A stretch of DNA of 64,000 bases from a virus, in IMG/VR virus record IMGVR_UViG_3300026078_000019, positions 1 through 64,000 of that record. One strand, given 5' to 3'. The notes beneath the pieces were generated by a model that was given only the letters and a program-made list of their open reading frames with translations, was not told where the DNA came from and searched no databases. This document shows positions 6,146-10,235 of the stretch, piece after piece; within the stretch, counting starts at the first letter, position 1; each line of letters starts with the position of its first letter. Position numbers and translations under genes: made by a program.

Positions 6146-6672
6146 GCGACGAAGTATCGAACCTGAGGGCGGAGCTGGAGTCGGCGCGGGCGATCAGCAA
6201 TGGTTTCCTGCACAAGATCCAGCAGCAGGACAACGAGATCAAGCGTCTCACCACAGAGAAGGCGGCGGTCCAGCGCAAGCTCGACACCACCACGAAGCAA
6301 AGGGACAAGGCGGTGCTGCGTGCCGCCCGTCTGATGTCGCAGACCAACGCGCTTCAGGAGGTGGCGGTCGCCTATCGAGTGATCGCTCGAACCTCTCTGA
6401 GCGACGGGCTCACCGCGAGCGTGGTGCGCACGGAGTTCGACAAGCTCGACAACATTCGAAACGCGGCGCAGGTCTATGCGCTCTACTCGGAGTTGCTCAA
6501 GAAGTCGGACAGCTCGAAAGAGATCGCGGCGTTGCTGGATGGCGTGGCGGAGAGGTTCGGCATGGGGGTGCTCGAACTCATCAGCCCGCTCGGGGAGCAC
6601 TCTTCCAACCTGCTCGACCACAACAACCAATCGGAGGTGATCGTCGATGACGCTGATTCTGATCAAGGATGA
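6142..6672 (+). CDS. Coiled-coil protein (176 aa)
   Basis: Residues 1-65 form a clear heptad-rich coiled coil (LRAELESAR..., IKRLTTEKAAVQRKL), followed by a helical domain and an acidic tail. It sits between dcd and thyX with a 4-base and a 26-base overlap, so it is made together with them, but no enzymatic motif is visible. Confidence 0.75.
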   Translation: MSDEVSNLRAELESARAISNGFLHKIQQQDNEIKRLTTEKAAVQRKLDTTTKQRDKAVLRAARLMSQTNALQEVAVAYRVIARTSLSDGLTASVVRTEFDKLDNIRNAAQVYALYSELLKKSDSSKEIAALLDGVAERFGMGVLELISPLGEHSSNLLDHNNQSEVIVDDADSDQG

Positions 6673-7939
6673 CCTTCATCCGGAGAGCGAGGCGATGGTG
6701 CAGGCGCTGTACTCGCGCAGCCCGGCAAGCGTCATCGAGCATTTGAAGAAGGTGGAGCAGGTCGGCGCCGACAAGTTCATGGGGCAGTACTACGTCGGTT
6801 ACGGCCACGACAGCATCGGGGACTGCGGCACCACCACGATCTTCGTCGAGGGCGTCTCGATGCTGGCGGCCAAGGCGATCCAGGACTGGCCGTTGTATCG
6901 GGGCCAGGAGGCCAGTACCCGGTACATGGATTTCTCGGAATCCATGCCAGCGAACCCGATCGAGTCGAAAGAGGGAGAGCTGATCCAGGCGACGTGGATG
7001 GACTTCTATCGGAGAGCCGAGCCGCGCGTGGTCGAACACCTGCGCTCGCTCTACCCGATCAGTGAGGGCGAAGACGAGAAGGTGTACGGACGGGCGATCA
7101 AGGCACGAAGCTTCGACATCCTGCGTGCCTTCTTGCCCGCAGGCGTCACCACCAACCTCTCTTGGCACACCGATCTGCGGCAGGCCGCCGACCACCTCGC
7201 CTGGATGCGACGCCATCCGGACCTGGAGATCGCGGACCTCGCCGATGCCATCTACGACAAGCTCGCCCAGACCTATCCGTCGAGCTTCGGCCGCAAGGTC
7301 AGCGACGAGGTGTCGGCGTGGATGAACCAGGTCTCGGAGTACTACACGTACGACGTAGAGCCGGCGCCGAAGAACGTGCAGCTCACTTTCTCGGGATTCG
7401 GTTACACGCCCAACGGTGTGCTGGAGATGCTGAAGGATCGCCCGAAACGGGCGCCTCTGCCGCACTGGTTGGGCCAGTACGGTTCGATCGAATCTCGGTT
7501 CGAGCTGGACTTCGGCAGCTTCCGTGATCTTCAGCGGCATCGCAACGGTGTGATGCGCATGCCTCTGCTCTCCCCGTCTCGCGGCTTCCATCCGTGGTAC
7601 CTCGAACAGCTACCGGAAGAGATGCGGGATGCAGCGGTGGCTCTCATCGCGACGCAGATCCGGCGCATTCAGTCGCTCGATGCGTCGCCGGAGCAGCGGC
7701 AGTACTACTGCGCGATGGGCTTCCTCGTCTCGTGCCACGTCACGCAGCCGCTGCCTGCGTTCCTCTATCGGATCGAGCTGCGCACGAGTCCGAGCGTGCA
7801 TCCGACGCTGCGCCGGATCGCGCAGCAAGAGGCAACGATCTTCATGCAGAGGAACCCCGGCATCGCTTGCCACGCCGACATGTCCCCGGATACCTGGGAC
7901 ACGCGCCGGGGCAAGCAGACCATCGAGGAGAAGGCCTGA
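6647..7939 (+). CDS. thyX: FAD-dependent thymidylate synthase, double-domain form
   Basis: ThyX makes dTMP from dUMP using FAD and methylene-tetrahydrofolate. The 430-residue length is about twice the usual 220-250, and two ThyX-like halves can be seen: an N-terminal half with RGQEASTRYMDF near residues 85-96, and a C-terminal half with FRDLQRHRNG near 290. The RHR part and the EASTRY part, which lie in one ThyX motif in single-domain enzymes, are on different halves here, so the two halves may form one shared active site. ATG 6647 has an excellent SD (GGAGGTGAT). Confidence 0.85.
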   Translation: MTLILIKDDLHPESEAMVQALYSRSPASVIEHLKKVEQVGADKFMGQYYVGYGHDSIGDCGTTTIFVEGVSMLAAKAIQDWPLYRGQEASTRYMDFSESMPANPIESKEGELIQATWMDFYRRAEPRVVEHLRSLYPISEGEDEKVYGRAIKARSFDILRAFLPAGVTTNLSWHTDLRQAADHLAWMRRHPDLEIADLADAIYDKLAQTYPSSFGRKVSDEVSAWMNQVSEYYTYDVEPAPKNVQLTFSGFGYTPNGVLEMLKDRPKRAPLPHWLGQYGSIESRFELDFGSFRDLQRHRNGVMRMPLLSPSRGFHPWYLEQLPEEMRDAAVALIATQIRRIQSLDASPEQRQYYCAMGFLVSCHVTQPLPAFLYRIELRTSPSVHPTLRRIAQQEATIFMQRNPGIACHADMSPDTWDTRRGKQTIEEKA

Positions 7940-8243: not shown

Positions 8244-8558
8244 ATGCTCTTCATCATCATGGCTGCTGTCCTTCTCGTCGCGCTCGTCGCTCCGAGTTGG
8301 GAGCGGTTCGAAGAGCGCGAGATCGCACATCGTCAGACCTTGTCGGTGTGCGACTCATCAGGCCCCGAAGTTGGGCCGATCGCTGAGTGCGGGGAACGGT
8401 CCAGCGCGCCCCAAGTTATGGCGCTGGCGCATCGATACCACGCGAGGTGGTACACCGGGTCCACAGCCCGCCATACTCGGGCGGGGTTCGGTCCCCGCAA
8501 TCCACGGGGGAGCCAGGAAGGGTTCCCCTGTGGATCCGTGTTTCTGTTCTGGGCCTGA
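8244..8558 (+). CDS. Doubtful membrane-anchored ORF overlapping structured RNA
   Basis: ATG 8244 opens a 104-codon frame whose first 17 residues are hydrophobic (MLFIIMAAVLLVALVAP). The remainder is low-quality: it runs through several strong hairpins (8401-8534) and ends 8 bases inside the tmRNA. The SD is poor. It could be a short membrane protein, but the distal part may be an open frame by chance over structured RNA. Confidence 0.3.
   Translation: MLFIIMAAVLLVALVAPSWERFEEREIAHRQTLSVCDSSGPEVGPIAECGERSSAPQVMALAHRYHARWYTGSTARHTRAGFGPRNPRGSQEGFPCGSVFLFWA
8401..8500 (+). other. Run of strong hairpins upstream of tmRNA
   Basis: Consecutive perfect stems occur: CCAGCGC/GCGCTGG, TACCAC/GTGGTA, GCCCG/CGGGC and GCGGGG/CCCCGC with loop TTCGGT. 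The last looks like a T-arm but its loop is one base short, and no matching acceptor stem is found, so I do not call a tRNA. It may be an unrecognised structured RNA or a 5' leader of the tmRNA precursor. Confidence 0.35.
8502..8534 (+). terminator. 14-bp hairpin just before tmRNA
   Basis: The stem runs from TCCACGGGGG to the complementary CCCCTGTGGA with only GU wobbles as imperfections, and a short A/G loop. The following bases TCCGTGTTTCTGTTCT are moderately T-rich. It could terminate upstream transcription or act as a processing signal 16 bases before the tmRNA 5' end. Confidence 0.4.
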
Positions 8559-8937
8559 CAGGTTTCGACGTGGTTGACGACGACTGTGTTGCGTGCAGGA
8601 GTTGATCGGTGGGCTCCTCTAAAAGCCGATCATCTGTAGCTGCGAACGATTCGAGCTACGCCCAGGCCCGAGCGGCCTGAGCCGTTGGGGTAGGTGGTCC
8701 GATTCGCCTATCCCGACGTCATTCAAGTCGGCACAACCTCTCACAGTGCGATCAGTGTGAGAGGCCGCGGCAGTAGATCTGATCGATGGTGGAGGATTCG
8801 CGGGCAACCGTGCATCCCTCGGAGAGAGCAGGCAACGCAGCTCACGCACTCCGTTATCAAGGCGTAAGAGCGCTGCTACGCACGTAGACGCACAGAAGAA
8901 GCAATCGCGGACCCGGGTTCGATTCCCGGCAGGTCCA
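8551..8937 (+). ncRNA. ssrA: Transfer-messenger RNA (tmRNA)
   Basis: The tmRNA rescues stalled ribosomes by acting as tRNA-Ala and then as mRNA for a degradation tag. The ends pair perfectly: GGGCCTG (8551-8557) with CAGGTCC (8930-8936), including the G3-U70 wobble recognised by alanyl-tRNA synthetase and discriminator A73. The T-arm CCGGG-TTCGATT-CCCGG is canonical. Helix P2 is present: TGCGTGCAG (8590-8598) pairs with CTGCTACGCA (8873-8882) with one bulge. Pseudoknot PK1 is visible (AGGAG/CTCCT interleaved with GATCGG/CCGATC). The tag frame starts at GCG 8642 after GTAGCT and encodes ANDSSYAQARAA, then TGA (8678-8680). CCA is not encoded. Confidence 0.93.
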
Positions 8938-8939
8938 TC

Positions 8940-9116
8940 GGCGCTGAATCAGGTGATGAGGGAACAACATCGAAGGCGAAGATCATCAGGGTCTGAAGAG
9001 TTCATGCCGCACCTCTACTTGCCCGCGGCCACTGATCTCAAAGTTGTAATACCAAAAGCAAACCCCCTGGTGTTCGAGTCCCGGTGCCCTTGGAGGTTCA
9101 AGTCCTCCCAGCGTCT
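8940..9116 (+). ncRNA. tRNA-like RNA of unusual length (about 177 nt)
   Basis: A canonical T-arm (GGAGG-TTCAAGT-CCTCC, 9092-9108) is followed by CAGCGTC (9109-9115), which pairs with GGCGCTG at 8940-8946 through seven pairs with one GU. The 5' strand begins three bases after the tmRNA. The total length is about 100 nt too long for a tRNA and I could not place a standard D-arm or anticodon arm. An internal stem TCAG+TGATGA/TCATCA+CTGA (8949-8996) is also strong. It could be a tRNA with an insertion or a different tRNA-like RNA. Confidence 0.4.
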
Positions 9117-9274
9117 GAGGTGCAACATGCGCTAGTAACCATGTGATCTAAGGGTGACGGTTCCTGGTTGCGGTAGTAGAGTGACTTCGTCACGCGCATC
9201 ATGCGTCCCGTGTTCAACGAATAGTTGGAGGCTGATCATGACGCCGCGGGAGTAACGACCCGCATACAACCTGC
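9117..9274. other. Intergenic stretch without an identified gene
   Basis: There is no ORF with an SD. Small hairpins occur (GTGAC-TTC-GTCAC near 9181, ACGC/GCGT near 9193), but no T-arm with matching acceptor. It may be the 3' trailer of the RNA cluster, which ends at the terminator at 9275. Confidence 0.4.
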
Positions 9275-9344
9275 CGAAGGGCCCGCCGGCATCGCGCCGA
9301 TCCGGGCCCTTCGATTTTGCTCCTATCAGCTAACGGAGGATCCA
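9275..9344 (+). terminator. Terminator followed by CTATCAG promoter-like element
   Basis: A 10-bp stem CGAAGGGCCC/GGGCCCTTCG (9275-9284 with 9304-9313) is followed by ATTTTGC. CTATCAG follows at 9323-9329, then GGAGGATCCA and the ATG at 9345. It closes the RNA cluster and starts the next gene block. Confidence 0.75.
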
Positions 9345-10235
9345 ATGAGTGCATCGTTCATCACGTTCAAGAACCACGCCGGCTGGATGGTGCGCGGCAA
9401 CGCGGTGGTGCCTCGTCCTTCGGGCGCCTCGCACATGGAAGCCGTGGCGTATCTGGTCTCGCAGGTGGAGACCGGCGGGAAGTTCGGCACGGTGCAGAGC
9501 TACGACGGCGCCGGGATGAGCGCGGGCCTGCTCCACAACGTGGCCGTGCTGCCCTCCACGATGACGCAGGGCGACCTCTGGCTGCTCATCGCCCACATGC
9601 GCGACGCCGTCGGGTCCCTGGGCATCGTGGGGGTCAAGATGGCGGCGGCGGGTTGGGCGCTCACCGCGGGCGGCGTGCTGATGAAGGGCGGCAAGCAGGT
9701 CACCGGCGCCGAGATCCGACAGGAGTTCGTCGGATCGCCCGACGGCAATGGGCTGCCCGGTTACACCCGCGGCAAGGAATGGGCGGAGGGCTTCAGCCTC
9801 CTCTTCTCCGATCCCTCGACGTTCGATACCCAGATCGCGTTCGCCATCCTGTGGTTGGCGAAGGGCAAGGCGGCGACCGAGCAGCAGGCGTACGCGAAGT
9901 TCGGGATAAGCGGTGATCTCAAGCTCGTGCTACGTTCGCAGCTTCAGCCCGAGATCGACATGGCGATGTCGGTCTACCATTGCTTCAGCGTGAACGCGCC
10001 GACGCCTGCGGCCGACATCCTCATGCAGGCCCTGGCGCACTACGGCAGTGGTGCCACCGCTCCACACGACTTCGCCAAGGACCTGATCAGCCGGTTCGGC
10101 AAGAGCGACTTCGCGCGCTGGCACGACGACCCGCAGGACCAGGGCAGCCGCTACGACTCCACCCGAGTCGCGGTGGAGAAGAGCGGGCTCTGGTCGCTCG
10201 ACCTCGTCCACGCCCTCATGCCGCGAAACCTTTGA
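9345..10235 (+). CDS. Possible lysozyme-fold peptidoglycan hydrolase (296 aa)
   Basis: ATG 9345 has GGAGG and begins a gene block. The segment GTVQSYDGAGMSAGLLHN (near residue 46) resembles the motif in phage virion lysozyme-like proteins where a Tyr-Asp pair precedes S-x-G-x-L-Q/H. The rest is helical (LLIAHMRDAVGSLGIVG, ILWLAKGKAATEQQAYAKFG). No signal peptide is seen. The assignment rests on one motif and is tentative; it may instead be a virion or effector-like protein. Confidence 0.75.
   Translation: MSASFITFKNHAGWMVRGNAVVPRPSGASHMEAVAYLVSQVETGGKFGTVQSYDGAGMSAGLLHNVAVLPSTMTQGDLWLLIAHMRDAVGSLGIVGVKMAAAGWALTAGGVLMKGGKQVTGAEIRQEFVGSPDGNGLPGYTRGKEWAEGFSLLFSDPSTFDTQIAFAILWLAKGKAATEQQAYAKFGISGDLKLVLRSQLQPEIDMAMSVYHCFSVNAPTPAADILMQALAHYGSGATAPHDFAKDLISRFGKSDFARWHDDPQDQGSRYDSTRVAVEKSGLWSLDLVHALMPRNL

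Follow-up and report, generated by a model that had tools for sequence, protein, structure and literature searches.

tmRNA is an RNA that releases stalled ribosomes and tags incomplete proteins for degradation. Phage-encoded tmRNAs are known but uncommon. A survey from 2014 listed tmRNA in ten phages, most of them mycobacteriophages (PMC4131195), and phages of Bradyrhizobium elkanii have since been added to the carriers (PMC12656738); both papers agree with an earlier sequence-only reading of the DNA studied here, which had ranked its tmRNA gene among a known but rare kind. The phage groups concerned are few. A related component, SspB, was found in phage pf16 and was unreported in any other phage at that time, while no tmRNA was found in pf16 (PMC5587285). 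Here, we analyzed the tmRNA gene of the window, which covers the first 64 kb of the 149,872-bp record of a large uncultured virus of bacteria. It shares its architecture with bacterial one-piece ssrA and, as far as the sequences tell, belongs to a phage-specific tmRNA lineage common to unrelated phages.

The window carries a complete one-piece tmRNA gene

ARAGORN recognized one tmRNA in the window, at 8551-8937 on the plus strand (as are all window features below), with the tag ANDSSYAQARAA encoded by nucleotides 92-130 of the gene. When all 4227 Rfam families were searched with cmscan, RF00023 was the sole match above threshold (8551-8940, 120.7 bits with a gathering score of 47, E = 1.3e-46), and the match covered the full model, positions 1-374. 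A complete gene had been read from the letters alone, with ARAGORN and the Infernal tmRNA model proposed as checks; both were run and both match, ARAGORN to the nucleotide.

The individual parts were recovered as well. The acceptor stem P1 consists of GGGCCUG (8551-8557) and CAGGUCC, the latter followed by the discriminator A (8930-8937), and it contains the G3-U70 alanine identity pair that had been noticed in the paired ends. The 3' end of the gene reads UCC-A-UCG, so that no CCA is encoded. The D-region is GGUUUCGAC, the T-arm is CCGGG-UUCGAUU-CCCGG (8913-8929), canonical as predicted, and the P2 and PK1 helices, also predicted, are present in the Rfam alignment. The tag frame (8642-8680) has 12 codons, starting with the resume codon GCG, continuing with NDSSYAQARAA and closing with UGA, and is preceded by UA at -5/-4; ARAGORN returned the same tag as the sequence-only reading. 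A hairpin, CAGGCC-CGAGC-GGCCUG (8663-8679; consensus fold columns 115-147), overlaps the end of the frame.

Structure and tag frame are conserved among phage copies

We compared eight phage copies of the tmRNA, whose pairwise identities range from 49 to 99.8%. All seven P1 pairs and all five T-stem pairs are formed in every copy. G3-U70 is invariant, and the other P1 pairs change on both sides, as does the closing pair of the T-stem (C-G, U-A or G-C among the copies). Also invariant in 8/8 copies are A73, UA at -5/-4, the resume codon GCG, AND[SN]SYA at the start of the tag and AA at its end, with the tag kept in frame throughout. In a MAFFT alignment of six copies, in which the 5' end is out of register by one or two columns, double changes were found in 30 of the 91 consensus pairs; the eight-copy table of P1 and T-stem pairs avoids this shift. 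A comparison of the window with G014, one of the relatives (further IMG/VR records found by TerL and Thy1 searches), is also informative. The Thy1 proteins of the two are 52% identical, and the DNA that could be aligned in the region was limited to 8548-8939, i.e., the RNA itself, the flanks not being conserved (blastn of L002). Compensatory pairs, together with the invariant G3-U70, UA and in-frame tag, indicate a tmRNA gene under selection. Thus, we conclude from these sequences that the gene is intact and selectively conserved.

The tmRNA gene lies between phage genes

The tmRNA is flanked by phage genes on both sides and does not lie at an attachment site. Genes of the window phage include Thy1, parts of a RecD2-like helicase, an ATP-dependent DNA ligase, a topoisomerase and a tail fiber; the rest of the record encodes a large terminase subunit, a DNA polymerase, a DnaB-like helicase, a UvsX-like recombinase and a 2110-aa RNA polymerase. 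The nearest named phages, Vibrio phages D69, D148 and D181 and Salmonella phage Arash, are distant, with about 27-29% amino acid identity in RNA polymerase and terminase. No tRNA genes were found in the entire record by ARAGORN and Rfam, and neither SmpB nor SspB gave a match in it. Lacking a phage SmpB, the window tmRNA would depend wholly on the host for its function.

The RNA polymerase (L007:11228-17560; G000 135228-141560) is a single chain of the multi-subunit type. In the five relatives whose polymerase was read it is encoded by a single open frame of about 2060-2080 aa, and in Arash and D69 by two genes. An in-frame TAG suspected in the polymerase of the relatives was dismissed, as the codon falls upstream of the reading frames proper, which are intact (2062-2080 aa).

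Upstream of the tmRNA lies the gene for a ThyX-type thymidylate synthase, Thy1 (6647-7939; PF02511, 50.8 bits), a neighbor kept in relatives. A 15-bp GC-rich hairpin (8500-8535; z of -3.85 for the stretch 8445-8548) ends 15 nt before the mature 5' end, and is possibly a processing signal or the terminator of the upstream transcript. Hairpins of unrelated sequence occur in a similar place near the tmRNA 5' end in G014, G012, G013 and G004. A scan for a sigma-70-like promoter upstream of the tmRNA found none, a result of little weight because the phage has its own RNA polymerase. Downstream, a mini-ORF, MTPRE* (9238-9255), stands behind a GGAGG site and is followed by a terminator-like hairpin and then CGATTTTG (9277-9311). 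The same order of GGAGG site, mini-ORF and terminator-like hairpin is found 3' of the tmRNA in four phages, namely that of the window (9238-9311) and G004, G014 and G012 (L151, L002, L150). The mini-ORFs have five codons (MTPRE, MRSAG, MKWQG) or eight (MQPRRSGW), their peptides are not conserved, and the whole window phage contains only three such units. The next gene (9345-10235) has homologues in G004, G014 and G012 with 36-40% amino acid identity and no Pfam or PHROG match. A degenerate tRNA considered at about 9068-9108 on account of T-arm-like stretches was rejected, since the fold is no better than shuffles (z of 0.53) and ARAGORN reports no tRNA there.

Relatives of the phage with and without the tmRNA

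One record, G016, is the same phage as that of the window (14.5 kb at 100% identity). Both the RNA polymerase and the tmRNA are present in G004, G012, G013 and G014; the polymerase of the relatives is 54-80% identical, and TerL of the diverged relatives is about 48-76% identical. In all carriers of this RNA-polymerase group the tmRNA lies 3' of Thy1, with a homologue of gene 9345-10235 on its downstream side in G004, G012 and G014; this synteny recurs in independent phage contigs of 172-196 kb. Three further relatives (G017, G018, G019; 160-177 kb) share the polymerase and TerL but show neither a tmRNA nor a Thy1 match; their records may be incomplete. Unless they are, the tmRNA is dispensable within the group. 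On the TerL tree the tmRNA carriers fall into two separate supported clades, so at least two changes are needed. Given the Thy1-tmRNA synteny and the shared downstream gene, the simplest reading is one old block with losses, or exchange of the gene set as a block. Arash and D69 have no tmRNA and show 25 and 22 tRNA matches, respectively; carriers in the window group show none or one.

One tmRNA lineage occurs in two unrelated phage groups

The tmRNA trees were built from about 170 columns, without the tag codons, and with bacteria from two phyla. When 89 tmRNAs of Pseudomonadota and Bacteroidota are included, the phage copies fall into a single clade (100/99). The clade is retained (98/98) when tmRNAs of mycobacteriophages and other viruses are added, and the mycobacteriophage tmRNAs fall outside it. 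Thus, the window tmRNA does not share the lineage of the mycobacteriophage (cluster C and Wildcat) tmRNAs, from which it is separated by its clade and by the absence of a long acidic tag. When named phages were searched at the nucleotide level for the tmRNA region, no match reached 1e-5, and with E allowed up to 10 most of the weak matches were ends of mycobacteriophage tmRNAs and tRNAs. Two viral contigs carry tmRNAs of other kinds according to ARAGORN, L155:6180-6528 (ANAPVRLAA, beside about 18 tRNAs) and L156:5338-5646 (GNTVSLRKAA).

Within the phage clade, the copies of G020 (IMGVR_UViG_3300036985_002246) and L201 group with that of G014 and are nested among the tmRNAs of a phage group to which G020 is unrelated. 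G020 has no homologue of the window-phage RNA polymerase, and within 13.6 kb around its tmRNA it has no protein in common with the window phage. Two phage groups that are not related therefore have the same tmRNA lineage, probably because it was passed from phage to phage; alternatively, each may have captured it independently from one unsampled bacterial group. All of the nearest relatives in our search are viral. This points to a tmRNA version that viruses maintain and exchange among themselves.

Endonuclease and SspB genes accompany some phage tmRNAs

In G020, 60 bp separate the end of a LAGLIDADG endonuclease gene (L159:7538-8461; PF03161, 59.1 bits) from the tmRNA that follows. The tmRNA of G013 is followed after about 40 bp by an HNH-type endonuclease gene (L026:1926-2450; phrog_3322, E = 1.3e-20), and in Mycobacterium phage Cosmo an HNH gene (L327:1-342) overlaps the tmRNA start. 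No endonuclease adjoining the tmRNA was recognized in the window, G004, G012 or G014.

A further gene of G020, immediately after Thy1 (L197:1441-1836, minus strand; G020:C1:56278-56586), encodes a homologue of SspB, with matches to PF04386 (43.4 bits) and to an SspB homologue in the PDB (E = 2e-4). The C-terminus of the G020 protein, ...WTPKVLKGGKS, looks by eye like the ClpX-binding tail of SspB. An SspB-like protein (L196:1390-1851, minus strand; 29.4 bits) is also found in Vibrio phage D69, a distant relative of the window phage without a tmRNA. Taken together, we can offer a tentative scenario, which we hold to be possible rather than probable: neighboring homing endonucleases may have moved the tmRNA lineage among unrelated phages, and in some of them, such as G020, a phage SspB may let the virus, in place of the host, decide how rescued fragments reach proteases, the RAA and NAA tags being adaptor-dependent.

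The tag keeps its final Ala-Ala and varies just before it

The tags of the phage copies are ANDSSYAQARAA in the window, ANDSSYAPAALAA in G014, ANDNSYAPAALAA in G004, ANDNSYASAAIAA in G020 and L199-L201, and ANDSSYAQPVLANAA in G012 and G013. For G013 (L026:1501-1885) ARAGORN gave ATPSPFSRTRPEPSAGRVA, which is wrong; the ANDSSYAQPVLANAA frame is present and was used after correction by hand. The tag ends thus vary, with RAA in the window, LAA in G014 and G004, IAA in G020 and NAA in G012/G013, and the varying codons sit inside the hairpin that overlaps the frame end.

As a bacterial baseline we used 116 tags, sampled evenly from Pseudomonadota and from the phylum to which a Rhodothermia genome belongs (Bacteroidota). 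The 68 Pseudomonadota tags end in LAA (32), AAA (19), YAA (15), IAA (1) or KAA (1), and 23 of them have 13 residues; the 48 usable Bacteroidota tags end in LAA (28) or MAA (20). Arg at -3 of the window tag falls outside the usual pattern. R or N before the final AA was seen in 0 of the 116 sampled tags, and KAA in one, so R or N is rare there, and a charged residue is not unprecedented. In E. coli the terminal Ala-Ala is the main determinant for ClpX, and replacing the Leu before it causes no more than a modest rise in KM (PMC7652416). It had been proposed that the RAA end could weaken recognition by ClpXP; considering this result, the final AA kept in all phage tags and the bacterial KAA, any such effect is probably smaller than was implied. 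The idea of a phage-specific tag spacing that mimics the engineered DAS+4 was dropped, as 13-residue tags are common among the Pseudomonadota sampled.

Identification of the host by tag match was also abandoned. Most hits in a pattern scan of bacterial genomes were Burkholderiales, whose tags came as close as ANDSSYALAA, identical in the first seven residues. However, the trees place the phage tmRNAs apart from these bacteria, and the match is thus convergence or a shared codon preference. For Burkholderiales tmRNA genes (L042, L047, L060, L069 and others), ARAGORN reports about 480 nt with the tag at 202 and not at 92, due to either an insertion or a misplaced 5' end.

Discussion

The intact gene, its compensated structure, the conserved in-frame tag, the phage context and a lineage apart from the sampled bacteria point to a functional phage tmRNA, a reading to which we assign a probability of about 75%. 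The RNA would be transcribed from the phage genome, trimmed, and provided with CCA by host enzymes. Host AlaRS would charge it with alanine via G3-U70, and host SmpB would bind the charged molecule and deliver it to ribosomes halted on mRNAs that are broken or lack an end. These ribosomes would switch to the tmRNA frame, add (A)ANDSSYAQARAA and be released, and the tagged fragment would go to ClpXP and similar proteases, probably with host SspB recognizing AND..Y. What the phage gains is most likely a reserve of ribosome rescue while it infects the cell and many mRNAs are broken. Extra rescue late in infection and an altered protein fate had both been suggested in the earlier reading, and both are plausible.

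The most interesting alternative is that the phage replaces host tagging with a tag which is degraded by ClpXP less readily, or only with SspB, and so changes the fate of truncated or regulatory proteins. The RAA and NAA ends depart from the usual hydrophobic residue while the SspB-type AND..Y is kept, an unrelated phage of the same tmRNA lineage (G020) has an SspB homologue, and in the engineered DAS+4 tag weak ClpX ends combined with spacing make degradation SspB-dependent (PMC8138137). However, the changed C-end is not shared by G014 and G004 (LAA) or G020 (IAA), the long spacing is ordinary in bacteria, one of which even has KAA, and the residue before Ala-Ala has no more than a modest influence in E. 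coli (PMC7652416), so we consider this rather unlikely. Lower still we place the view that the tmRNA is a passenger of a mobile segment, spread among phages by homing endonucleases and of little benefit itself. It would account for the endonuclease genes beside or overlapping the tmRNA in G020, G013 and Cosmo and for the nested position of the G020 copy, but it does not fit the tmRNAs of the window, G004, G012 and G014, beside which no endonuclease was recognized, and strong compensatory conservation needs selection on function.

Conservation also bears on whether the RNA could be a decoy that ties up the SmpB or AlaRS of the host, blocking trans-translation there. Mycobacteriophage DS6A has little beyond the tRNA-like domain of tmRNA, a similar molecule inhibits tmRNA (PMC4131195), and no SmpB was found in the window phage. 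Nevertheless, a decoy has no need of an mRNA-like part, a resume site and an in-frame tag, all of which are conserved, and we regard it as improbable. As for an origin from the host, the 3' end of ssrA is the integration site of many temperate phages, and short tmRNA 3' ends occur in prophage records. A remnant of integration in ssrA, or a contaminant in a chimeric contig, is nevertheless rejected as hardly credible: both gene ends are present with phage genes on either side, the synteny is repeated in independent 172-196 kb phage contigs, and the RNA groups with phages and not with bacteria.

With a functional phage tmRNA as the preferred reading, the window group provides several diverged carriers with almost no tRNA genes, in which the question of rescue can be separated from codon supplementation, the usual explanation. 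The comparative set shows the charging pair, the resume site, AND..Y and the final AA to be fixed, in contrast to the freely varying residues directly ahead of the tag end. One lineage in unrelated phages, adjacent endonucleases and one SspB homologue also make a phage-controlled tagging route a testable proposal.

Compared with bacterial one-piece tmRNA/ssrA (RF00023), the window tmRNA has the same P1 with G3-U70, D-region GGUUUCGAC, P2, PK1, resume codon, tag ending in AA and T-arm, but differs in being phage-borne, in lacking an encoded CCA, in its clade apart from the sampled bacteria, in Arg at -3, in the UGA stop and in the absence of SmpB from the record. The mycobacteriophage tmRNAs (Bixzunavirus/cluster C: Tonenili, Shifa; Wildcatvirus: Cosmo) are likewise phage-encoded with a tag of their own, in Cosmo with an adjacent endonuclease. 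However, they are located in tRNA arrays, have acidic tags of 22-25 residues (ATDTDATVTDAEIEAFFAEEAAALV, AVDTDVDFAMWEAELASDLVAA) and lie outside the window clade, whereas the window phage has no recognized tRNA gene and a short proteobacterial-like tag. By description, the Bradyrhizobium elkanii phages (PMC12656738) are similar in having a tmRNA and no tRNA genes; the window region has no similarity in the phage collection. The tmRNA of G020 (L159) belongs to the window clade, with the tag ANDNSYASAAIAA, but its phage differs in having no RNA polymerase homologue, a major head protein gene and the LAGLIDADG gene as neighbors, 34 tRNA matches and the SspB homologue. Pseudomonas phage pf16 has SspB with no tmRNA found (PMC5587285), the window phage has the tmRNA only, and G020 has both.
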